Source of the DNA: Methanobacteriota archaeon
Lineage (GTDB): Archaea; Halobacteriota; Methanomicrobia; Methanomicrobiales; Methanospirillaceae
NCBI GenBank assembly: GCA_029547145.1
Contig: JAKPPV010000026.1
Span: 62,001 to 126,000, forward strand
DNA length: 64,000 nt
Reading direction: 5' to 3'
Shown here: piece after piece, positions 27,923 to 62,312 of the stretch
Layout: the number at the start of each line of letters is the position of its first letter
Numbering within the stretch: the stretch's first letter is position 1
Program-made: the position numbers and the translations under genes
The notes under the pieces: generated by a model
Told to the model about the DNA's origin: nothing
Databases searched by the model: none
What the model saw: only the letters and a program-made list of their open reading frames with translations

Positions 27923-30046
27923 TCAACGCCGTTCGGGAAGTTCGTCCGCCCTCTTCACGACGAGGCGCGTTCCGCCCTGTAGCAGTACGGGGGCGTAGAA
28001 GAGGGTCGATCCATGCCCGTCGAACGAGAGTGGGACGAATCCCACGCGGCGCGCCCACCGTCGGATCGAGTCCGGGATCGGCATGGTCGGGATCGCGGAT
28101 GGGGGTATGACCGAAAGGAGGTCCACCTCGATACGACCCTGACGCGCCTGTTCGGCCCTTTCCAGTGTCCGCAGTGCTGCTTTGAGGGCCTGCACCTCGC
28201 CACGCTCGGGATCGAAGGTGCGGACCCGTTCGAGCGCGCTCTGGACGGCGGGAGAGAGCGTCTCCCGGGGTGGGACCCGCCGGGCAGGTACGCGTGGCGG
28301 TGCCGTCACGAGTCGCGGCTCCTCGGACCGTCCCGGGGAGCGAAGCGCCCACCAGATACCACCGCCGGCGACGATGAAGACGACGGCGAGTGCCGCAAGG
28401 AAGAAGGGCAACCACCAGGGCGTCTCCCCGGTGACGGGGGGAAGAGGGGCATCCGTCGTCGCGGCAGGACCGGAAACGGTCGTGGATGCAGGTGGCAGCA
28501 GGGTGGTGTTGGCGGGAGTCGGCGTCGAAACGGGTGTGACCGGGATCGCGGTCGAAGGTGCCGGCACCGTGGTCCCCGACCCTGGCGTGGTGACCACCCG
28601 TGTGGGGTGCAGTACCAGCCTGAGCTGGACGGTCGCCGAGACCTGTCGACCGACAGCTCCGTTCGGGTCGGGGCTTGCCGTGCCGTGCTCGTGGTCCAGG
28701 AGTGCCTCTGCCCAGATCGCGTACTCACCCGCCGGGTAGGCGGGGTCGCCCGTGTTCCACGCCGCTCCCGTGGTCCCCCTGACGATGTGGGGTGTCTGGA
28801 CCACCATGATCCGTTCGAGGCTCTGGCGGACCCCGTCGTCTCCCACGAGCGTGGCGCTGATCCGTCCGGACGGGTCCTGAACCCTGATCGCCACCGGTGC
28901 GCCGGTTCCCCGTGTTCGGAAGGCAGAGAGTTCCCCGGAGACCTCCAGGTTGAACGAGCGCCCCTTCGCGATCGTCCCTCCGGTGACATAGCCACCCGTT
29001 GCCGTGTCGACGAGCCTGAGGGAGAGTGCCGGCTCTTCAACGAGCAGTGCGAACTCCCTGTCCCTGTCCAGGTTGAACCATCGTCCCGTCCGTGCGTCGT
29101 GCGGAATGGTAACCCGACGCGGGTCTTCGATCCGGAGCGTCGCCGCCGGCATTCCTTCCGGGGACTGCGTGACGAACCACCCGAGGGTGTCTCCGGATCC
29201 AACACCTGTCGCCGTGATGTCGAGGCCCCGTTCCCCAGAGTAGACGGTCGCACCCGGGCTCCTGATCACGTTGGGGGCGATCGGACCGGGTGTAGCCCGC
29301 GTGCGGGTCACGGTCGGGACGACTGTCGGCGTCGGCGCACCTGACCCCGGCAGAAATGGCCGAAGTGCCGCGTACCAGCGGGCCGCAATCTTCTTCTCAC
29401 CGCTCTCTGCAGGATGGATCCCCGTCGGTGGCTGGTTGTCGGCCACACCGTCGTACCCCGAGTACATGTCCACGATCACGACCGGTGAGTCCGGGGTCGA
29501 CAGGCGCGTTGCTACGCCGGGGATCGCGGCGTTCAGGGCATTCAGGTTCGGACGCGGGATCGATGTCGGCGGGATCTGGGCAAGCAGTATCACTGCGTGC
29601 GGGTTGTCGTTTCGAAGCTCCGCAATGATACCCTCGAGGTTCCGGATGGTCTCCTCCGTGGGCACGTTGTTCAGGACATCGTTCGTTCCGAGCATCACGA
29701 GCGCCACGTCGAAATCGTACTGTGCGAGCCACAGCGATAGTCTTCCCTGCCTGGGGTCTGCGGAGACACCATTGAGGATCCCGGCGGTCATGTATCCACC
29801 ATGCCCCTCGTTATCCTGGTCAAAGGAATAGGCAAAGTTCGGGGCAGTCCAGGAGCCCACGAAGTCCACGTCAAGGTCGCTGATCTGCTGCCAGAGCCAG
29901 TACCGGTAGGTCGGGTGATTTGCCTCCTGTGGAGTCTGGGTCGATCCCTTGGTCAGGGAGTCACCGAGCGGCAGTACCCGGATCGTGGCGTCGGCAGTGC
30001 CGGCGACGAGCAGCAGGAGGAACACGAGGAGGATGGCACGTCGCAT
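27923..30046 (-). CDS. Exported SGNH hydrolase-DUF3821 membrane protein
   Basis: A 707-residue protein. From the ATG at 30046: signal peptide (about 1-20), an SGNH/GDSL esterase domain (GDSLTKGS near 28, GTNDV near 120, and [10 protein letters not shown] with the catalytic Asp/His, to about 235), Pro/Thr linker, a DUF3821-like domain (about 255-450, Methanomicrobiales-enriched), another Thr-rich linker, a transmembrane segment ([16 protein letters not shown]) and a cytosolic tail of about 130 residues ending in RADELPERR. The predicted esterase is outside and the tail inside. The frame continues 17 codons further upstream but without a signal there. Confidence 0.87.
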
Positions 30047-30135
30047 CAGTCGATCCGGTACGGTGCGCACCCCTGCTTCATGAAGGTATGGTATCATTGC
30101 GTAGATACATCCCGTTTGGGAGAGAAGATCTCCCG

Positions 30136-30795
30136 ATGAAGACCTGTCGGGAGATTCGGGCCGTACTCTTCGACCTCGACAATACGCTGGTACGGTTCAT
30201 CGATGCCCAGCGGGCTGCCTGTGCATCAGTGATCGAACTCGCCGGCGCCGGTTCTGTCGAGGACCTCTTCGGATATTTCCTGAGGCCGGTTTACAATTTC
30301 GAGAGCCATCAACACATCCGGGAGTATCTCTCCGCGATCGCCTCGCCCTGCGATCCAGCGATGGCCTGCGCGCGTTACGAGGACGCGAAGCTCGCCGCGC
30401 TCGAGCCATATGTCGGTGCATGCTCCACGCTGGAACGGCTCCACAGGGCGGGAATTCCGATGGCAGTCGTCACCGACGCGGATGATGCTCATGCTGCCTC
30501 CCGCCTCGCGCGCGCCGGTCTTGATCATCTGTTCGAGGTGGTGGTGACACCTGAAACGACAGGAGAGCGAAAACCATCGGTACGCAACTTCATCCACGCC
30601 CTCGATCACCTCGGAGTCGACCCGATTGAGGCGGTGATGGTCGGAGACTCGCTCAGGCGTGATATCGAACCAGCAAAGAGGTTGGGAATACTCTCCGTCC
30701 ATGCCGCCTACGGGGACTGGAACCCGGGATACTCCTGCCTGCCCGACCACCGTCTTGAAGAGGTCTCGGGACTCGTCGAGATTGTACTGGACTGA
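30136..30795 (+). CDS. HAD-superfamily hydrolase
   Basis: A 219-residue HAD phosphatase. Motif I FDLDNTLV gives Asp13/Asp15, motif II is VVTDADDAHA, motif III lysine lies in TGERKPS, and motif IV is MVGDSLRRDI. It has a C1-type helical cap (about 20-90). The substrate cannot be told; family members act on phosphoglycolate and similar compounds. The ATG at 30136 follows a divergent promoter shared with the SGNH gene. Confidence 0.9.
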   Translation: MKTCREIRAVLFDLDNTLVRFIDAQRAACASVIELAGAGSVEDLFGYFLRPVYNFESHQHIREYLSAIASPCDPAMACARYEDAKLAALEPYVGACSTLERLHRAGIPMAVVTDADDAHAASRLARAGLDHLFEVVVTPETTGERKPSVRNFIHALDHLGVDPIEAVMVGDSLRRDIEPAKRLGILSVHAAYGDWNPGYSCLPDHRLEEVSGLVEIVLD

Positions 30796-30943: not shown

Positions 30944-33112
30944 ATGCATCAGGCCATACCCCCTGAGCGACTGGAACGGCTCCTGCTGGAGGCAGGGCTG
31001 AATCCCGACAGGCCGCTCCGGACGGATGGGGGACGGCAGTACCGGACCTGGCAGAGGGGCGGGGAGCCGGTCATCATGGTGGCGGAGGACGGAGACGCCG
31101 GCGATGCCGTGCAGCTCCACCGTCTCGCCTGGACGTTCGGCTGCCGGTGGGCCCTCGTTGCCCTGGAGATCGACCGGATCGGTCTGATCGGCACCACCTC
31201 CCCCCCGTCAGCCCAGGCGCCACCCCGTCTCCGGGTGATCGACGCCCCGCGTCTTCGCACAATCCTGGCGGGTATCCAGCCCTGTTCCAACCCGGGCATC
31301 GTCGACGTCCTCGTTGAGAGGATGGGAGAATGGCGGCGACGGAACCTTTGGCGGGCACTCTCGGATCGAACGGACTGGAATGAGGAGGAACTCTTGCTCT
31401 CCGTCGAGATGCCGATCCTCGACCTCCTGACAGGAGAGAGGTCCGGATCGCGAGCCGGTTACCAGATGGACGCCGAGCTGGCGTCCGCCGGTGTCGACCC
31501 CGCCCTGATCCCACCGGGACTGCTCGCCCTCGCCTGGGACCGTCATCTCTCCTGGCGTCTCCGGTTCCGTGGAGGCGAACCCACTCTCGTTCCTTCGGCC
31601 CTCGCACCGTCGGGGCAGTCGCGCGCTCTCCTCTGGGAGTTCGCCCGTTGGGCGGGCGAGGAGTCAGGAGACGCCCACAGTGTGCTGGTGCCCGGGTGCG
31701 GCGCCGGCCGACTCCTCCTCCACGTTGCCCGATGGGAACGGGCCAAAAAGATCCGGCTCTACGCGGTCGATCCGGACCCACGAGCCACCCTCTTTGCCGC
31801 CCGACTCGTCGAACGGGTGAGCGGGGGGCCCCTCTCCTTGAGCGTGCGAACGGCAAACCCGCTCGTCGAACAAGACCTCTTCGACGGCCCGCTGGGGCAA
31901 CTCGTTCCCGGTGAAGCCAGGTCGCGTCTTCGGCCCATCGACTGGGAGAACATCTTTGATGGAACGAGAGAGTTCGACCGCATCCTGATCGGGGATCCCA
32001 CCCTCACGATGACCCGCCGGCAGGAGGTCCGCCGGTACCTCGAGGAGAGATACCGTTCTGCAGCGAGCGACACGGACCGTGCCCTGCTCCTTGCAGAAGC
32101 CGGAGCAGCCCGTCTGAGTCCGGGGGGACGGGTCCTGGTCCTCTATCCCAGCTCCATCCTGCGGTCTGAACGGGCCTTATTGCTGCGGCGATGGCTCGCT
32201 CCCCGCACGGAGTCCTATCGCATCTCCTCCTTCGACCCGGAGGCAATCGCCCTGAAGGTCGCTCCTGACCCGATCGATGAGCCGATCGTAATGGGGCGCC
32301 TGGACGGTGATCCCTCCGATGTGCGTGCGTATCCAAGGAGCATCCTGCAGGCGAACGGGTGGTCGTTCCCTGACATCCGCACGATGGAAAGGCGGCGCTG
32401 GGTGGTACCGACCGGGTGTACTCCACTCGGCGAGGCGCTGGTGGGCGGGATACGACCCGCGGAGCCGTTCGTGTGCAACCCGTCCCTCCTGGTGGGCAGG
32501 GACGTCCGTCGCCGTCTCGTGAGGGCGGACCGGCGGGCCGCCAGGAACATCCGCCCCTTTTTCCGTGCGTGGGACTTGGTCCGTTATGGCACGGAAAGGG
32601 ATGCGGTCCTGTTCCTGATCGCGGGCACCCTGCCACCACGGGCGTTTCGGGAGGCGCGAAGACTCGGACTTTCCACGGACGACCTCTGCGGCAGCGTTCC
32701 ACCACCGTCCGGGCCGAGACTGCTCTTCGAGGATGGTATGAAACGGCCTGTCTTTCTCTTCGATCGGTCCGGAGGGGCACTGACCGCTCCGGGGATCGCA
32801 GAGGTGGTCCCGGGAAACCTCTTTCTTCTCGGTCTTCTGCACTCCGCGCTCGTCGGGGCGTTCCTTGACGAGCGGTGCCCCGGTGGCGTCACGATCCGGT
32901 GCCTCTCCCGCCTCCCGGTCCGTCTCCCCGACCCGTACGACCCCCGTGAGAGCAGTCTGTATCACCGTATCGTCTCCCTTGTGCGTGCCCGGATCGGTCC
33001 GGTGACAGGGGTTGAGAGGGATCAGCAAAGGTGCAGGGCGATGGAATCGGGGATTGAGGAGGCGGTGGAGCACCTGTACCACCCATCCCCGGTCCGCCAG
33101 GTCGGGGGATGA
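30944..33112 (+). CDS. Degenerate Eco57I/type IIG-like DNA methylase
   Basis: A 722-residue protein built like a type IIG (Eco57I) methylase. The SAM-binding motif I is visible as VLVPGCGAGRLLLHVARW, followed by YAVDPDP; the segment EFDRILIGDPTLTMTRRQEV aligns with the catalytic FDxVIGNPPY block, but NPPY reads DPTL. The LLLAEAGAARLSPGGRVLVLYP stretch matches the post-catalytic helix and strand, and residues after about 440 resemble a target-recognition region (IRPFFRAWDLVRYG). No nuclease motif is evident. Start at ATG 30944; an upstream GTG (30875) is possible. Solitary, with no R-M neighbours. Confidence 0.6.
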   Translation: MHQAIPPERLERLLLEAGLNPDRPLRTDGGRQYRTWQRGGEPVIMVAEDGDAGDAVQLHRLAWTFGCRWALVALEIDRIGLIGTTSPPSAQAPPRLRVIDAPRLRTILAGIQPCSNPGIVDVLVERMGEWRRRNLWRALSDRTDWNEEELLLSVEMPILDLLTGERSGSRAGYQMDAELASAGVDPALIPPGLLALAWDRHLSWRLRFRGGEPTLVPSALAPSGQSRALLWEFARWAGEESGDAHSVLVPGCGAGRLLLHVARWERAKKIRLYAVDPDPRATLFAARLVERVSGGPLSLSVRTANPLVEQDLFDGPLGQLVPGEARSRLRPIDWENIFDGTREFDRILIGDPTLTMTRRQEVRRYLEERYRSAASDTDRALLLAEAGAARLSPGGRVLVLYPSSILRSERALLLRRWLAPRTESYRISSFDPEAIALKVAPDPIDEPIVMGRLDGDPSDVRAYPRSILQANGWSFPDIRTMERRRWVVPTGCTPLGEALVGGIRPAEPFVCNPSLLVGRDVRRRLVRADRRAARNIRPFFRAWDLVRYGTERDAVLFLIAGTLPPRAFREARRLGLSTDDLCGSVPPPSGPRLLFEDGMKRPVFLFDRSGGALTAPGIAEVVPGNLFLLGLLHSALVGAFLDERCPGGVTIRCLSRLPVRLPDPYDPRESSLYHRIVSLVRARIGPVTGVERDQQRCRAMESGIEEAVEHLYHPSPVRQVGG

Positions 33113-33397
33113 ACGTCCGCTCCCGGCATCTTGATATACGAGGAAAAGCAGATTGAGACCCGATCGCCGATCAGGATGGGATGAGCACCGGTACCAAGCG
33201 GATGAAAGGATCGAACGGTCGGGATCGATGGATCACATTCTGCCGGAGTGCTCCTCATTCCCGGTGTGGATCGAGAGATCGGAGCCAGATCGGAGGTTCG
33301 GCGGTTGCGATTGCCGGTTCAAGGGATATATGACAGGACATCAGTTCGGTCCTGGTTTGCGGGGCCCCACGTGGTCGGCAGAAGAACAGCCAGCACC
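33113..33397. other. Short intergenic region before histidine kinase
   Basis: A 285-base gap. A continuous frame runs back from the kinase to 33248, but I see no domain or start signal there and begin the kinase at 33398. No RNA or repeat is apparent. Confidence 0.4.
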
Positions 33398-34876
33398 ATG
33401 AGCGACGAGATGGAGGAAGGTGCTCTTCTCCGGGAATCATCCAGGACGGGATCGGTCGCCGTGGATACCGGGGGGCGGATCCTCTCCGCAGATCATCTCT
33501 TCTCCCGGTGGGTGGGGACGTCGTCTCACGAGATCGTCGGTGGACTGCTGGAGGATTATGTCTGCCCGATGGATCGTCCATCCCTTCGGGCAGTACTCTC
33601 CGCCCTGGGGGGGGAGGGGGCCGTCATGGACGTCCGGTTCTGCTTTTCCGGGCAGGAGAGTGTTCCGGTAAGAATCGTCGTCAGCGCGGGCAGCAGGGAT
33701 GATTCTCTTCTTGTAAAGATACATGGAGGCGACTCCGTCACCCGGGAACGCCCTGAACCGGGAGAGGACCGTTTCAGGCTTGCGCAAGCGATCCTGGCAC
33801 AGGTTGACAGCCCTGTCGTGGTCCTTGATGCTGATGGACGTGTTCTCATGAGCAACCCGCCTGCGCAGGCGCTTGCCGACCGGGATCCGGTCGGGCTTGG
33901 GTTCCTGGATGTCTTTCCCCTGATACCTGTCCCGGCAGGTGGGAATGACGCCCTGCACCCGATACCCGGGTCCCCTGATCCCGCTGGAAGAACCGGTCCT
34001 GTCCCGGTCTCCGGGCTGTACCGGCTGCCTGCCCGCGATGACCGTCAGCTCCGGGTGACGGCCGAAAGGGCATCCGGTCCGGGAGACGCAGGGGGAGCGA
34101 TCGGGTTTTGGCTGATCCGGCTGGATGATGTCACCGCCCGACCCGCAGATGAGGAACGACTCCTGAGGGCACGGGAAGCGGTTGCCGATTCGAGGAGAGA
34201 GCTTCAGCAGTTTGTCTATGCTGCAAGCCACGACCTGCAGGAGCCGCTCCGGATGATCACGAGCTATCTTCAGTTGCTGGAACGGCGATATGCCGGACGC
34301 CTCGACGACGAGGGACTCGAATTCATCGGTTTTGCTGTGGACGGGGCCAGCAGAATGCAGGAGCTGATCAATGCACTGCTCATCTATTCCCGGGTGTTCA
34401 GTCGTGCACAACCCGTGGAGCCGGTTGACTCAGGAACGGCAGTCGCAGAAGCCCTCGCTCATCTCGAACAGAAGGTGGTCTCCTCGGGTGCCGAGATCGC
34501 CCTGGGCCCTCTGCCGATCGTCCGTGCCGATAGGGCGCAGCTCGTGCAGGTCTTCGAACAACTGATCGACAATGCTCTGAAGTTTCGTGCACAAACCCCG
34601 CCACGCATTCTGATCGATGCGCAACGGATCGATGGTGGTATCCGATTCCGGGTACGGGACAATGGTATCGGGATCGACCCGAGATGTCATGAACGGATCT
34701 TCCAGATCTTCTCCCGGTTGCATCCCCGCGACCAGTACCCGGGAACGGGGATCGGACTTGCCGTCGTGCAGCGGATCGTCGAGCGACACGGGGGTCGGTG
34801 CTGGGTCGAATCCACGGAGGGGGCCGGTTCGACGTTTTACTTCTCCCTTCCCGACCACCCTGCCGAGGCAGCATGA
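33398..34876 (+). CDS. Sensor histidine kinase (PAS-HisKA-HATPase)
   Basis: A 492-residue cytosolic kinase. Two PAS-like domains (about residues 10-105 and 125-245) precede a HisKA domain with the H-box ASHDLQEPL (His278) and an HATPase with N box DNALKFR, DNGIGID and GTGIGLAVV. No transmembrane segment, so it senses cytoplasmic signals. Its stop overlaps the next receiver gene (ATGA). ATG 33398 (MSDEME) is the first start that leaves a sensible N terminus. Confidence 0.92.
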   Translation: MSDEMEEGALLRESSRTGSVAVDTGGRILSADHLFSRWVGTSSHEIVGGLLEDYVCPMDRPSLRAVLSALGGEGAVMDVRFCFSGQESVPVRIVVSAGSRDDSLLVKIHGGDSVTRERPEPGEDRFRLAQAILAQVDSPVVVLDADGRVLMSNPPAQALADRDPVGLGFLDVFPLIPVPAGGNDALHPIPGSPDPAGRTGPVPVSGLYRLPARDDRQLRVTAERASGPGDAGGAIGFWLIRLDDVTARPADEERLLRAREAVADSRRELQQFVYAASHDLQEPLRMITSYLQLLERRYAGRLDDEGLEFIGFAVDGASRMQELINALLIYSRVFSRAQPVEPVDSGTAVAEALAHLEQKVVSSGAEIALGPLPIVRADRAQLVQVFEQLIDNALKFRAQTPPRILIDAQRIDGGIRFRVRDNGIGIDPRCHERIFQIFSRLHPRDQYPGTGIGLAVVQRIVERHGGRCWVESTEGAGSTFYFSLPDHPAEAA

Positions 34877-35391
34877 TTCCCACGTTCCATACCGGTTCTC
34901 CCTCGCCCCCCGCATCGACAAGACAGGAGAGGACAACACGCATCGACCCGCCCTCCCGCGATATCCTGCTCATTGAAGACAGTCTTGGAGATGTCCGTCT
35001 GATCAAGGAGGCGTTGCGTGAGATCGGTGGTGTTCATACCCTCCATGTGGTCAACGACGGGGTTGAGGCGCTGGCTTTCCTCAGAAGGCAGGGGATCTTT
35101 GAATCTGCACCACGTCCGGATCTGATCCTCCTCGACCTGAACCTCCCGAAGAAGAACGGGCGCGAGGTCCTCTCCGAGATCAAGTCGGATGATGGTCTTA
35201 AAGAGATCCCTGTTGTCGTATTGACGATCTCGACGGCGGAGGAGGATATCGTGACCGCGTATCGTCTCCGGGCAAACTGCTACGTGATCAAGCCGGTCAA
35301 CCTCGAGCAGTTCTTCCAGGTGGTCCAGTCGATCGAGCGATACTGGCTCTGGAGGGACTGGAGCGGTGAGAGGAGCTGGTATGGACTCTAG
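34873..35391 (+). CDS. Single-domain response regulator (Rcp1-like)
   Basis: A 172-residue receiver protein with an N-terminal tail (about 30 residues) before LLIEDSLGDV. The phosphoacceptor is Asp88 in LDLNLPKKNG, the Thr/Ser is in VLTIST and the Lys in VIKPVN. This long form resembles receivers of phytochrome-type kinases. It overlaps the kinase gene by ATGA and the next receiver start by 11 bases, so the three are one operon. Confidence 0.93.
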   Translation: MIPTFHTGSPSPPASTRQERTTRIDPPSRDILLIEDSLGDVRLIKEALREIGGVHTLHVVNDGVEALAFLRRQGIFESAPRPDLILLDLNLPKKNGREVLSEIKSDDGLKEIPVVVLTISTAEEDIVTAYRLRANCYVIKPVNLEQFFQVVQSIERYWLWRDWSGERSWYGL

Positions 35392-35770
35392 CCCCGCCCC
35401 GCTCCTTGTGATCGAAGACAACCCGGCCGATCTCCGGTTGTTGGTGGAACTCCTGCGTGAGGAGGCACCCGGTTCGTTTGAGATCCACCCGGCATGCCGC
35501 CTCTCGGAGGGGATCGCAGCACTTCGTTCCCGATCGTTCGAGGCGATACTGCTCGATCTCTCCCTCCCCGACGGACAGGGGCTGGACCTGATCGATGCGG
35601 TTCGTGAGGAGGCACCGGGGGTTCCGATCCTCGTCCTCTCCGGGGTGCTCGACAGGGAGCTTGTCACGGATGCCCGGATGCATGGTGCAGCTGGCTGTTT
35701 CATCAAGGGGTGCGAGACGATCCACGACCTCGTCTGCGCGATCCGGTGCCTCGAACTCCGCTCTGACTGA
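35381..35770 (+). CDS. Single-domain response regulator
   Basis: A 129-residue CheY-like receiver. LLVIEDNPADLR holds the acidic pocket, Asp59 in LDLSLPDG is the likely phosphoacceptor, and FIKGCE carries the conserved Lys. The ATG at 35381 lies within the last codons of the preceding receiver. No output domain; the partner kinase is probably the upstream histidine kinase. Confidence 0.92.
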   Translation: MDSSPAPLLVIEDNPADLRLLVELLREEAPGSFEIHPACRLSEGIAALRSRSFEAILLDLSLPDGQGLDLIDAVREEAPGVPILVLSGVLDRELVTDARMHGAAGCFIKGCETIHDLVCAIRCLELRSD

Positions 35771-36593
35771 ACCCTCCCGGATCGTTTTTCATGGACGGTA
35801 TCCCGGGTCACAGTGAATCATTCGGGTGATTCCGACCCCTCCTCACCACCCCCTGTGCGATGACACTGCCGGCGATATCCTATCAGTCCGCGGAGTCCTC
35901 GGGCCTGGAGTAGAGCCGGTCGATCTCCCCGTTGCCGGAGGAGGCATCGAGTCCCTCCGGTTCCTGCGGTGATTTGAAATCCCTCGAGTCTCTAACGACG
36001 GATCCCATCCTGTTCGACCTGACCATCCTGAAATAGAACGCCGATGGAGCCCTTCCGGAGAGATCCGACGCGTGATGCACCCGCAGGTACCCTTCGTCGT
36101 CCCGGTGACGTCCTCCTATCCCGAGGAGTCTGGAATTCCTGCCGGTGCTTTGCCGATACCCGGAGCAGAGGGCTGCTCACCCTGGTATAACATGTCAGGG
36201 CAGGAATCGATCCAGACCTCAACTCAATCGATGCATCACCCTCCCCGGTGCTGCAGGTTCCTCGTCAGGACATCTGGAGCGTGTTCAGCTTCCCGCTCCG
36301 TGATCACGGGGAAAGTCGGACCCTGACCAGCGTTTGGGGGGTTGAGACGTTCGGGAGCCGAATCGGTCGGGGCCGGTTTCGAAAATATCCACGTAAAGTA
36401 GTTAAATAAGACCGCGCAAGTATAATCCACGTCCCGTCCCACATCCGGTATAACGGTAGTATCACGGCTGAAATTGGAATCCTGGTCCATTACGTTAGCC
36501 AATGTGGGAGGTTCAAGGGGATGATGATGAGCAACCGCTCCGGGAGGGCCCAGTACGCGACCCCGGTGGTGTCCTTGCAGGGAGGCGACGAGC
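35771..36593. other. Intergenic region before hybrid kinase
   Basis: An 823-base stretch with no credible gene; frames present lack starts, motifs or codon bias. A TATA-like gttaaataag (36401-36410) predicts initiation near 36432, giving a leader of about 160 nucleotides to the hybrid kinase. Confidence 0.5.
36402..36409 (+). promoter_or_regulatory. Candidate TATA box of hybrid histidine kinase
   Basis: TTAAATAA in an AT-rich island of an otherwise GC-rich region, upstream of the hybrid kinase with no nearer candidate. Confidence 0.4.
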
Positions 36594-38915
36594 ATGGACC
36601 CTGAGGCGCTTCGAGTGCTGCTGGTTGAGGACAATCCCGGCGATGCCCGGCTCGTCCGCGAGATGCTGGCGGAGATCAGCACCGAACATTATGAGACGGT
36701 GCCGGTGGGCCGGCTCGCCGATGCCCTTCGTTTCCTGAGTGAGCAGCCGTTCGATGCGATCCTCCTCGATCTGAATCTCCCGGACAGCTACGGGCTCGCC
36801 ACCCTGATCAAGCTGCGGTCGGTTGCACCTCACGTCCCCGTGATCGTCGTCTCGGGGCTTGCCGACGAGGAGATGGCGATCCATGCCCTTCGCGAGGGGG
36901 CCTATACCTACCTTGTCAAGGGTCAGATGAACGGGTATCTCCTGAACCGTTCGATCAGGTACAGTATTGAACGTGAGCGTACAGAGCAGATCCAGCAACT
37001 GAAACGCGCCCGCGAATACGCTGAGAACATCGTCGATACCATCCGGGAGGTCCTGATCGTGCTCGATAACCGCCTCCGGATCATCTCGGCGAACCGTTCG
37101 TTCTACGAGACGTTCCAGACGGTTCCGGAGAAGATTGAAGGCAGGTACGTGCACGAGCTGGCCGACCGGGTCTGGAACATCCCCGAGTTCCTCGCCCTCC
37201 TCGAGCGGATCCTGATGCACTCCTCTCAGCAGGAGGGGCTTGAGCTCGATCATGACTTTCCGGGCCTCGGGCGGCGGGTGATGCTGCTGAATGCCCGATG
37301 GGTGTACGAGGAGAAGGGTGAGACCGACCGGATTCTCCTCGCGATGTCCGACATCACCGAGAGAAAAAGGGCCGAAGAGGCTCTTGCTGCCGAGAAGGAG
37401 AGGCTCGCGGTGACTCTCTGGAACATCGGTGAGGGGGTGATCGTTGCCGATGTCCGGGGTTCGATCGTGCTGATGAACAGGACGGCCGAACAGCTGACCG
37501 GGTGGAGCGCAACAGAGGCGATCGGACGGGAGATCACGGAGGTCTACCGGACTGAGGATGAGAGTACCCGGAAGCCCTGTGCAAATCCCGTTGCACAGAT
37601 CCTCCACCAGGGCTCCCTGAGGGATCGGGTCCGGCACCGTCTGCTCATCTCCCGGGATCGCTCGGAGCGTCCTCTCGGAGAGACACTCGCACCCGTCCGG
37701 GATAGTCGGGGGGATATCATCGGTGTCGTGATCGTCTTTCGGGATCTCACCACCGAACGGCGGATCGAGGAAGACCTTGCCAAGAACGAGCGCCTGGAGT
37801 CGATAGGTGTCCTGGCAGGGGGAATCGCCCATGACTTCAACAACATCCTGACCGCGATCGAGGGGAATATCATCGTTGCGAAGGCCCACCTGAAGGAGGA
37901 TCATAAGGCCTTCGAACGGCTGGTGGAGGCCGAAAAGGCTGCATATCGCGCAAGAAACCTGACCCGTCAGCTGCTCACCTTCGCGCGAGGTGGTAAACCG
38001 GTCAAGCGGGTCCTGAACCCCGGGGAGATCATACGGGAATCGACCCTTTTTGCCCTCTCCGGGTCCACGATCCGGCCGGAACTGGTCGTCCCCGAGGATC
38101 TCTGGCAGATCGAGGGGGATGTGGAGCAGCTCAAGCAGGTGATCCATAACCTCGTCAGCAACGCAGATCAGGCGATGCCGGACGGGGGTCGCCTTGTTGT
38201 CTCCGCCGAGAACGTTGTCCTTGGTGATGATGAGCTGGTAAACCTCGGGGGAGGACGGTACGTGCGTCTCACCGTCTCGGATACCGGACCCGGTATTCCG
38301 AAGGAGCACCTCACGAAGATCTTCGAGCCATACTTCACCACCAAGCAGTCCGGGAGTGGACTGGGCCTGACCGTCGCCCATTCGATCGTCCGTGACCACG
38401 GAGGTAGTATCGAGGTTGATACCCGCCCAGGGCTTGGAACGAGGTTCATGGTCTATCTTCCTGCAACCAGTCGGATCGCTTCCCCGCCACCGGAGACTCG
38501 GGACCACCCCGTGGGGGGAGATGAACGGGTGCTCTGGATGGACGACGAGGAGATGATCCGGGAGGTTGGCAGCGAGATGCTCCGTGTCCTGGGATACCAG
38601 GGCACGTTCACCCGTGACGGGGAGGAGACGCTCTCAGTCTTTAAGCAGGCGATCGCGGATGACATCCCGTTCCAGGCGGTGATACTGGACCTGACCACGG
38701 TGAACGGAGTGGGTGGGGTTGAGACGCTCCGCCGCCTCCTCGAGATCGACCACCGGGTCCGGGCGATCGTCTGCAGCGGTTACTCGAACGATCCGGTTCT
38801 TGCGAACTATCGCGAGTATGGTTTCTTGGGGGTGTTGCCGAAACCGTTCTCGCTCCAGGACCTGGACACCCAGCTGCGCCGGGTGCTAATGGGCTCTCCG
38901 GTGGAGTCCGGATAG
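36594..38915 (+). CDS. Hybrid histidine kinase REC-PAS-PAS-HisKA-HATPase-REC
   Basis: A 773-residue soluble hybrid kinase. The N-terminal receiver (about 1-125) has Asp59 in LDLNLPD; two PAS domains occupy about 150-265 and 275-390; the H-box GGIAHDFNNIL contains His413; HATPase signatures are SNADQAM, DTGPGIP and GSGLGLTV; a C-terminal receiver (about 645-773) has Asp699. Phosphotransfer from His413 to either receiver is possible. No DNA-binding output. SD gggaggc precedes the ATG. Confidence 0.94.
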   Translation: MDPEALRVLLVEDNPGDARLVREMLAEISTEHYETVPVGRLADALRFLSEQPFDAILLDLNLPDSYGLATLIKLRSVAPHVPVIVVSGLADEEMAIHALREGAYTYLVKGQMNGYLLNRSIRYSIERERTEQIQQLKRAREYAENIVDTIREVLIVLDNRLRIISANRSFYETFQTVPEKIEGRYVHELADRVWNIPEFLALLERILMHSSQQEGLELDHDFPGLGRRVMLLNARWVYEEKGETDRILLAMSDITERKRAEEALAAEKERLAVTLWNIGEGVIVADVRGSIVLMNRTAEQLTGWSATEAIGREITEVYRTEDESTRKPCANPVAQILHQGSLRDRVRHRLLISRDRSERPLGETLAPVRDSRGDIIGVVIVFRDLTTERRIEEDLAKNERLESIGVLAGGIAHDFNNILTAIEGNIIVAKAHLKEDHKAFERLVEAEKAAYRARNLTRQLLTFARGGKPVKRVLNPGEIIRESTLFALSGSTIRPELVVPEDLWQIEGDVEQLKQVIHNLVSNADQAMPDGGRLVVSAENVVLGDDELVNLGGGRYVRLTVSDTGPGIPKEHLTKIFEPYFTTKQSGSGLGLTVAHSIVRDHGGSIEVDTRPGLGTRFMVYLPATSRIASPPPETRDHPVGGDERVLWMDDEEMIREVGSEMLRVLGYQGTFTRDGEETLSVFKQAIADDIPFQAVILDLTTVNGVGGVETLRRLLEIDHRVRAIVCSGYSNDPVLANYREYGFLGVLPKPFSLQDLDTQLRRVLMGSPVESG

Positions 38916-40845: not shown

Positions 40846-40883
40846 AACCATAATGCACCTGTACAGACATAGGTGTGATCAGA

Positions 40884-42494
40884 ATGTCGCAGGTGCTTGG
40901 AGGACAGCCCATCATCATCCTGAAGGAGGGCACGACCCAGACCCGGGGGCAGGAGGCCCTCGGTAACAATATCGCCGCCGCGAAAGCGGTCGCGAACGCG
41001 GTCCGGTCCACCCTCGGTCCACGCGGGATGGACAAGATGCTCGTGTCGGGGATCGGGGACATCGTGATCACGAACGATGGAGCGACGATCGTCGACGAGA
41101 TGGATATCGAGCATCCGGCCGCAAAGATGATGGTCGAGATCGCCAAGACGCAGGACCAGGAGGCGGGAGACGGTACGACGACCGCGGTCGTTCTTGCCGG
41201 CGAGCTCCTCTCCGAGGCCCAGAAACTCGTCGCCGACAGCGTCCATCCGACGGTGATCGCCGCAGGGTACCAGCTTGCTGCCGGTAGGGCGTCCGCCTTC
41301 CTCGATTCGATCGCAAAGTCCGTCGGACCATCCGACACCGCACTTCTCCGACGGATCGCGATGACCGCGATGACCGGGAAGGGCGCAGAGGTTGCGATGG
41401 ACCAGTTCGCCGATATGATCGTCAGGGCGATCGGGATGGTCGTTGAGGAGGATGGTACCGTCGATCCCGACTTCGTCAAGGTTGAAAAGAAGGTCGGAGG
41501 TTCCTTCGACGACTCGGTCCTGGTGGAGGGGATTGTCCTGATAAAGGAGCGCGTTCACCCTGCAATGCCGAAGAGGGTGGAGAATGCCCGTATCCTCCTC
41601 CTGAACGTTCCGATCGAATACAGGAAGCCCGAGTCGAACGCGAAGATCAGGTTGACTGCTCCCGGTCAGGAGCAGGCGTTCATCGAGAACGACGAGCGTA
41701 TGAGCCGCGAGATCGCCGAAAAGGTGATCCGCACCGGTGCGAACGTCATCCTCTCCCAGAAGGGTATCGACGACCTTGCCCAGCACCACCTTGCGAAGGC
41801 CGGCATCCTGGCAGTCCGCCGGCTCAAGACCTCGGATCTGAAGCGTCTGGCGCGGGCCACCGGTGCCAGCATCATGACGACGCTCGATGACATCCAGCCC
41901 GAGAGCCTCGGATACGCCGGGCTCGTCGAGGAGCGGATCATGGCTGCCGATGAGGTGATCGTGGTCGAACGATGCCAGAACCCTCGGGCGGTGACGATCC
42001 TCCTCCACGGTGGCACCGAGCACGCCGTCGACGAACTCGAACGCGCGGTACACGACGCCGTGCGGGTGGTCGGAGTCGTTGTGGAGGACGGGAAATACGT
42101 CGTCGGGGGTGGCGCACCCGAGATCGCCCTCGCCCGCGACCTCCGGGAGTTCGCAGTCACGATCGGCGGACGGGAACAGCTGGCGGTCGAGGCCTTTGCG
42201 CGTGCCCTCGAGGCGATCCCGAGGACGATCGCCGAGAATGCAGGCATCGACCCGGTCGATGCGCTGGTTGCCCTGCGTGCGGCTCATGAGGCGGGCGATC
42301 GATCTGCCGGTATCGACATCCTTTCGGGTGAGGCGTCCGACATGGAGGCATTGGGGATCGTCGAGCCGCTGCGCGTGAAGAAACAGGCGATCGCATCAGC
42401 CACCGAGGCGGCGGTGATGATCCTCCGGATCGATGACATCATCGCCTCGTCGAAGGAGCAGGGGTCCGAGGGTGAGGCGGCCGGAGACTACTGA
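40884..42494 (+). CDS. Thermosome (group II chaperonin) subunit
   Basis: A 536-residue thermosome subunit. The equatorial domain motifs STLGPRGMDKML, ITNDGATI and GDGTTTAVV are present, then an apical domain and C-terminal equatorial GGGAPEIALARDL. It folds proteins in ATP-driven double rings. Start is ATG 40884 (MSQVLGGQ) with aggtg nearby. A GC-rich hairpin (ccctcc pairing ggaggg around 42509-42528) follows the stop but lacks a T tract. Confidence 0.97.
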   Translation: MSQVLGGQPIIILKEGTTQTRGQEALGNNIAAAKAVANAVRSTLGPRGMDKMLVSGIGDIVITNDGATIVDEMDIEHPAAKMMVEIAKTQDQEAGDGTTTAVVLAGELLSEAQKLVADSVHPTVIAAGYQLAAGRASAFLDSIAKSVGPSDTALLRRIAMTAMTGKGAEVAMDQFADMIVRAIGMVVEEDGTVDPDFVKVEKKVGGSFDDSVLVEGIVLIKERVHPAMPKRVENARILLLNVPIEYRKPESNAKIRLTAPGQEQAFIENDERMSREIAEKVIRTGANVILSQKGIDDLAQHHLAKAGILAVRRLKTSDLKRLARATGASIMTTLDDIQPESLGYAGLVEERIMAADEVIVVERCQNPRAVTILLHGGTEHAVDELERAVHDAVRVVGVVVEDGKYVVGGGAPEIALARDLREFAVTIGGREQLAVEAFARALEAIPRTIAENAGIDPVDALVALRAAHEAGDRSAGIDILSGEASDMEALGIVEPLRVKKQAIASATEAAVMILRIDDIIASSKEQGSEGEAAGDY

Positions 42495-61820: not shown

Positions 61821-62312
61821 ATGAGCTCTTCCAGCTTCTACGAGGGCAGGGCGGCGATCGTGGGAATCGGTGAGTACTGTATCGGGCAGGACCCGATGGC
61901 AACGATCGGGCTCGGGTCCTGCGTCGCTCTCATCCTCTATGAACCCAGGCGGGCCATGGGTTCGATGGCACACGTGATGCTCCCGGATTCGCACGGACGT
62001 CTCGATCGACCGGGCAAGTACGCGGATACGGCGGTCCCCTTACTGCTCGAGGGGATGCTCGGAAAGGGGTGCCGCATGCAGAATCTGGTGGCGAAACTCG
62101 TCGGCGGTGCGAGCATGTTCGCTCAGTTCAGCGGGAACCTGAATATCGGTGACCGGAATACCCGGACACTCAGGAGTCTGCTTGATGATGCGGGCATCCA
62201 GGTCGTTGCGGAGCTGACCGGGGGCAACGTGGGTCGCTCGGTCGTCTTTTTCCCCCGGGAGGGGGGGCGCGTCACGGTCAAGCGGGCTGATGGGACGTGC
62301 TGCGATCTCTGA
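61821..62312 (+). CDS. cheD: Chemoreceptor glutamine deamidase CheD
   Basis: A 163-residue CheD. The catalytic motif IGLGSCV gives Cys34 and HVMLP gives His51; the third catalytic position, often Thr, lies in GGASMF (Ser here). It deamidates receptor glutamines and partners CheC. Start ATG 61821, eight bases after cheC. Its last 16 bases overlap the propeller gene. Confidence 0.94.
   Translation: MSSSSFYEGRAAIVGIGEYCIGQDPMATIGLGSCVALILYEPRRAMGSMAHVMLPDSHGRLDRPGKYADTAVPLLLEGMLGKGCRMQNLVAKLVGGASMFAQFSGNLNIGDRNTRTLRSLLDDAGIQVVAELTGGNVGRSVVFFPREGGRVTVKRADGTCCDL

Follow-up and report, generated by a model that had tools for sequence, protein, structure and literature searches.

A gene on the forward strand at 30944..33112 of a 64,000-nucleotide stretch (the window; positions 62,001 to 126,000 of contig JAKPPV010000026.1, assembly GCA_029547145.1) from a methane-producing archaeon of the Methanospirillaceae, order Methanomicrobiales, encodes a protein of 722 amino acids (aa) derived from a type IIG restriction-modification (R-M) enzyme. 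Judged by their motifs, both catalytic centres, nuclease and methylase, are degraded and the protein appears non-catalytic; cofactor motifs I and II, the full fold and the target-recognition-domain (TRD) region are retained, and within genera the gene is inherited vertically at fixed loci. We put at about an even chance the reading that a type IIG enzyme, now catalytically dead, has been domesticated and retained as a chromosomal protein that presumably binds DNA in a cofactor-gated way. A broader proposal, held more tentatively and given somewhat less than even weight, is that the Methanomicrobiales domesticated type IIG enzymes into a doubly inactive, possibly S-adenosylmethionine (SAM)-gated, sequence-specific DNA-binding family, turning a defence enzyme into a chromosomal regulator; one fixed slot, dys-X-tiaS, would then be open to dead and active versions alike. 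R-M genes are usually viewed as selfish or defensive, and inactive ones as decaying fast. If confirmed, a family that selection maintains although both activities are gone would be a clear case of R-M exaptation and would supply a naturally occurring collection of pseudo-methylases with which to explore the role of a methylase fold that no longer catalyses; annotation of methanogen genomes should not call its members restriction enzymes.

The open reading frame is intact, from an ATG at 30944 to a stop at 33112; an alternative GTG 23 codons upstream is possible, and homologue starts line up with the ATG. Motif I (VPGCGAGRLL, aa 249-258, 31688..31717) is kept, at the 94th conservation percentile within the genus, as is the acidic residue of motif II (YAVDPDP, aa 273-279, 31760..31780), and both the Gly-rich loop and the acid are shared with gamma-class (TaqI-type) methyltransferases (MTases). 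At the motif IV site (aa 349-355, 31988..32008), IGDPTLT replaces IGNPPYV; in alignments with NPPY homologues P352 falls on one of the NPPY prolines and no Tyr is present, a difference also from solitary (orphan) DNA MTases. The sequence-only reading had described an intact motif I and acidic loop together with loss of the aromatic residue at the NPPY site, and alignment and orthologues bear out both observations. Chance, frameshift or sequencing error as the source of the loss is ruled out, the change being common to the orthologues. Overlooked in that reading was a degenerate nuclease domain at the N-terminus.

The proposed type IIG affiliation agrees with structure prediction, in which AlphaFold 2 and Foldseek confirm a type IIG/TaqI-class fold. 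The model (pLDDT 89.5, pTM 0.79) has the single-chain nuclease-MTase-TRD layout of type IIG enzymes, and its matches in the PDB comprise M.BseCI, CamA, BpuSI, MmeI, BrxX and M.TaqI, of which BpuSI, MmeI and BrxX support this layout; template modelling (TM) scores normalised by query length lie at a moderate 0.27-0.42, the level to be expected where multidomain proteins differ at their hinges. Residues 1-112 (30944..31279) form a PD-(D/E)xK nuclease remnant: the first ~110 aa follow the helix and strand order of that fold and align, with E and K absent, to the nuclease domain that carries EAKKP in intact type IIG relatives, and this stretch also stands out in its substitution rates, given below. 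A helical connector with the motif X region, its FYTP lost in the alignment, follows (aa 113-225, 31280..31618), then the Rossmann MTase core (aa 226-455, 31619..32308) and a constrained TRD region (aa 456-660, 32309..32923), both seen in the model and fold matches and the latter also in the divergence data, and finally the modelled C-terminal helices (aa 661-722, 32924..33109). The protein thus shares with Eco57I/BpuSI-like enzymes the single chain, nuclease-fold N-terminus, helical connector, gamma-class MTase and TRD, but lacks both catalytic motifs, E-x-K and (N/D/S)PP(Y/F/W). Pfam gives only weak, generic methyltransferase matches, whereas relatives match Pfam Eco57I; in PADLOC the mad2 profile is best (E=4e-10, over the MTase core) and type II MTases are weak; and searching solved structures by sequence yielded no match. 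Profile comparison with the relatives, together with the predicted structure, places the protein in the Eco57I/TaqI class.

Equally important is the conservation of the gene in its place. A search of genome contigs with the single protein as query gave no match, and a search with an alignment recovered orthologues in four genus-mates at 44-56% identity with gene order unchanged; a complete genome of a second genus (G009) carries a copy 32% identical over the best segment. In all six genomes, spanning the two genera, the dead gene belongs to a core block with a divergent SGNH-like hydrolase gene as upstream marker (27923..30097, reverse strand), a HAD-like hydrolase gene directly upstream (30136..30795, forward; kept in five genomes besides the window at 60-78% identity within the genus and 50% in G009) and, downstream, a syntenic PAS histidine kinase gene (33383..34876, forward, start codon uncertain). 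The gene is undisrupted, as the sequence-only reading held, but not alone. NPPY is absent from 6/6 syntenic copies, and the intact homologues described below sit on a separate branch; the refuting condition named in the sequence-only reading, an orthologue with intact NPPY, was looked for and did not refute it. In place of NPPY the genus has GDPTL, GDPVF, GDPVL, ADPAV or GNPVV, and G009 has SVPVA: the proline is invariant, the remaining residues vary, and the stretch is of average conservation in the genus (60th percentile). DPTL itself is not conserved. By eye, with the neighbours only partly profile-scanned, no BREX genes (pglZ, brxC, others) and no MADS partners were recognised beside the gene among the SGNH, HAD, histidine kinase and response regulator genes. 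The protein shares the fold of BREX PglX/BrxX without NPPY or a recognised BREX operon, and has mad2 as its top PADLOC profile without a recognised MADS operon, being a full-length MTase with a degenerate nuclease.

A profile built from the six syntenic proteins and run against 232 genomes of the order matched in 104, and about 90 homologues were read out, 32 with intact motif IV and 55 dead. 'Dead' was defined on motif IV only, and the losses in the nuclease, motif X and motif VIII are independent of that definition. The motif IV Tyr occurs in 0/55 dead and 31/32 intact proteins (the remaining intact one has Trp); among alignable copies, the nuclease E is present in 0/17 dead against 28/29 intact and the K in 0/16 against 28/29; the motif X Tyr is found in 0/50 against 31/31. 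Across the dead family the motif X Phe-Tyr and the motif VIII DFG-x-PVF element are mostly lost, with the motif I Gly kept in 53/53 and the motif II acid (Asp/Glu) in 55/55. Intact homologues, which occur in the same order and even the same genus (active type IIG copies lie elsewhere in genomes G004 and G006), mostly keep all motifs, the nuclease motif included where the region is covered; they are mostly 1000-1080 aa long, the dead proteins mostly 740-1080 aa. In two dead sub-clades the altered motif IV is itself strongly conserved, reaching the 99th percentile in the 14 genomes of the GAPPPYRPF clade and the 96th in the 6 genomes of the GNLPDGPL clade. Very diverged dead homologues in genus g12 (L067, L068, L069, L070) may form a lineage of their own; their motif IV is of the SCPEGKSP type and their motif I, WDPSAGCGE, is degenerate. 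No account of the dead family was found in the open-access literature searched, which is weak evidence of absence; searched by term, a 2023 survey of archaeal R-M systems, which counts type IIG genes in Methanomicrobiales, yielded no reference to inactive or degenerate members (PMC10609329).

Selection on these genes is purifying, with constraint that is real but relaxed. The ratio of nonsynonymous to synonymous substitution rates (dN/dS, Nei-Gojobori) is 0.20-0.54 in 16 dead pairs against 0.08-0.27 in 8 intact pairs. The nuclease remnant is the most relaxed region (median 0.47 dead, 0.08 intact), and MTase, TRD and C-terminus of the dead proteins stand at about 0.3. The TRD behaves differently in the two groups: in intact enzymes it has diverged much further than the core (median identity 66% versus 90%), as expected from specificity switching, whereas in dead proteins it tracks the core (71% versus 77%). 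Relative to the MTase core, TRD divergence is 1.15 in dead and 2.52 in intact proteins (disjoint pairs, Mann-Whitney p=1.8e-5); these pair statistics ignore phylogeny and the identity ranges differ, but the contrast persists among pairs at 60-80% core identity. The dead family thus departs from type IIG enzymes in showing no excess TRD divergence and in its vertical inheritance at a fixed locus. With NPPY-less syntenic orthologues, purifying selection and a family-wide dead lineage, the earlier view of a conserved, repurposed protein rather than a decaying remnant has good support.

A single branch divides dead from intact proteins with moderate support (SH-aLRT 92; 85/90 and 86% of bootstrap trees). 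A single ancient inactivation is nonetheless unproven: the approximately unbiased (AU) test does not reject dead and intact g15 proteins as a clade (p=0.65), and the tree, unrooted and ladder-like with long branches, allows repeated inactivation.

In two other genera, g5 and g15, one housekeeping slot houses most of the dead genes whose contigs reach far enough; its order is dys - X - tiaS - regulator - thermosome, and pyrF and rpa follow on the far side of dys. In two g5 genomes, G185 (L081) and G186 (L110), the gene next to tiaS is an intact type IIG gene, at the same site and on the same side as the dead versions, and the slot is possibly an exchange site for R-M genes; G207 has one short remnant of 250 aa there. 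The slot is empty in the window's genome (G000, contig C31), G003 and G009. The dead gene lies away from it in the window's genome and G009; G003 was not scored for the dead gene, its contig ending beside the locus. Thermosome synteny as a sign that the window gene occupies this Methanoregula-like slot was ruled out, the nearby thermosome gene being a paralogue and the true slot empty. That gene (40875-42494) is the third thermosome paralogue and shares 63% identity with the copy on contig C31 that is found family-wide.

Under domestication, the ancestor would have been a type IIG R-M enzyme uniting nuclease, gamma-class adenine MTase and TRD in a single chain; both catalytic centres would have been lost and the protein then retained on the chromosome. 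Binding of SAM or S-adenosylhomocysteine may persist, as the retained motifs suggest, the TRD would bind a fixed DNA site without base flipping or methylation, and the protein would work as a cofactor-dependent DNA-binding regulator or scaffold. The dead protein probably has a new non-catalytic job, because both sites are gone yet relatives keep it under selection, and a putative role as DNA or nucleotide sensor is plausible. METTL14-type pseudo-methyltransferases likewise keep the MTase fold with a changed motif IV in a non-catalytic role, but their lineage is unrelated, and METTL14 has a known partner where none is known here. Within the same fold, E. coli BrxX, an MTase-TRD protein recognising DNA, provides a precedent for cofactor-gated binding, SAM lifting its DNA affinity 3-5-fold (PMC11842806). 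Several points weigh against this reading. The BrxX mutant Y511A loses DNA binding (PMC11842806), so a protein without that Tyr must bind differently, if at all; the lost motif X aromatics help hold SAM; dead proteins evolve faster than intact ones; neighbours vary between genera, so context yields no function; and archaeal PolB2, likewise a conserved family called inactive from motif loss (PMC2527604, PMC8764526), was later shown to be active (PMC8764526), which calls for caution.

An unlikely alternative, though the likeliest of them, is a non-catalytic partner that lends DNA specificity or a scaffold to the product of another locus, be it a methylase, a nuclease or a signalling protein. METTL14 (EPPL) serves METTL3 in this way, and HsdS serves HsdM. 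A TRD retained despite lost catalysis, the active copies in G004 and G006 and a small Hjc-like-fold protein that often adjoins the dead gene in Methanoregula-like genomes fit such a role, but no candidate partner gene is conserved across every dead clade, and the small nuclease-like family has no member in the window's genus and multiple copies elsewhere, which rules it out as a universal partner. Quite unlikely, too, is a protein that is still an enzyme, its altered motif IV used for a different SAM-dependent reaction or for a different substrate such as RNA, protein or a modified base: the kept motifs I and II, the new motif IV conserved in two sub-clades, the Asp-Pro or Asn-Pro kept within the genus and the PolB2 precedent agree with it, and against it stand the missing Tyr in 55/55, a motif IV that differs between sister clades and is only averagely conserved in the window's genus, and the additional loss of motifs X and VIII. 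A slowly decaying R-M relic without present function, already disfavoured, is improbable: dN/dS above that of intact enzymes, the relaxed N-terminal domain and the G207 remnant are countered by long open frames in about 50 genomes, dN/dS well under 1 in every pair tested and the conservation of motif I. Most improbable is a residual anti-phage role in which foreign DNA is bound and another effector triggered, as by BrxX in BREX, for although the mad2 and BrxX matches point that way, BREX or MADS genes were not recognised by eye beside the gene, its neighbours are housekeeping, and the TRD diversification favoured by a phage arms race is not seen.

The small protein, of ~145 aa, occurs in multiple copies in Methanoregula-like genomes, often in convergent orientation to the dead gene (L043:5026-5643(-), L047:6901-7353(+), L038:10865-11308(-), others); its AlphaFold 2 model (pLDDT 79) is similar to Hjc Holliday junction resolvases (E ~1e-3), its catalytic E-x-K is apparently degenerate, and the one member scanned has no Pfam match. 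Downstream of the dead gene, the window holds two PAS histidine kinase and two response-regulator genes (33383-38915), a cluster conserved in the genus, to which related genomes add a further response regulator copy.
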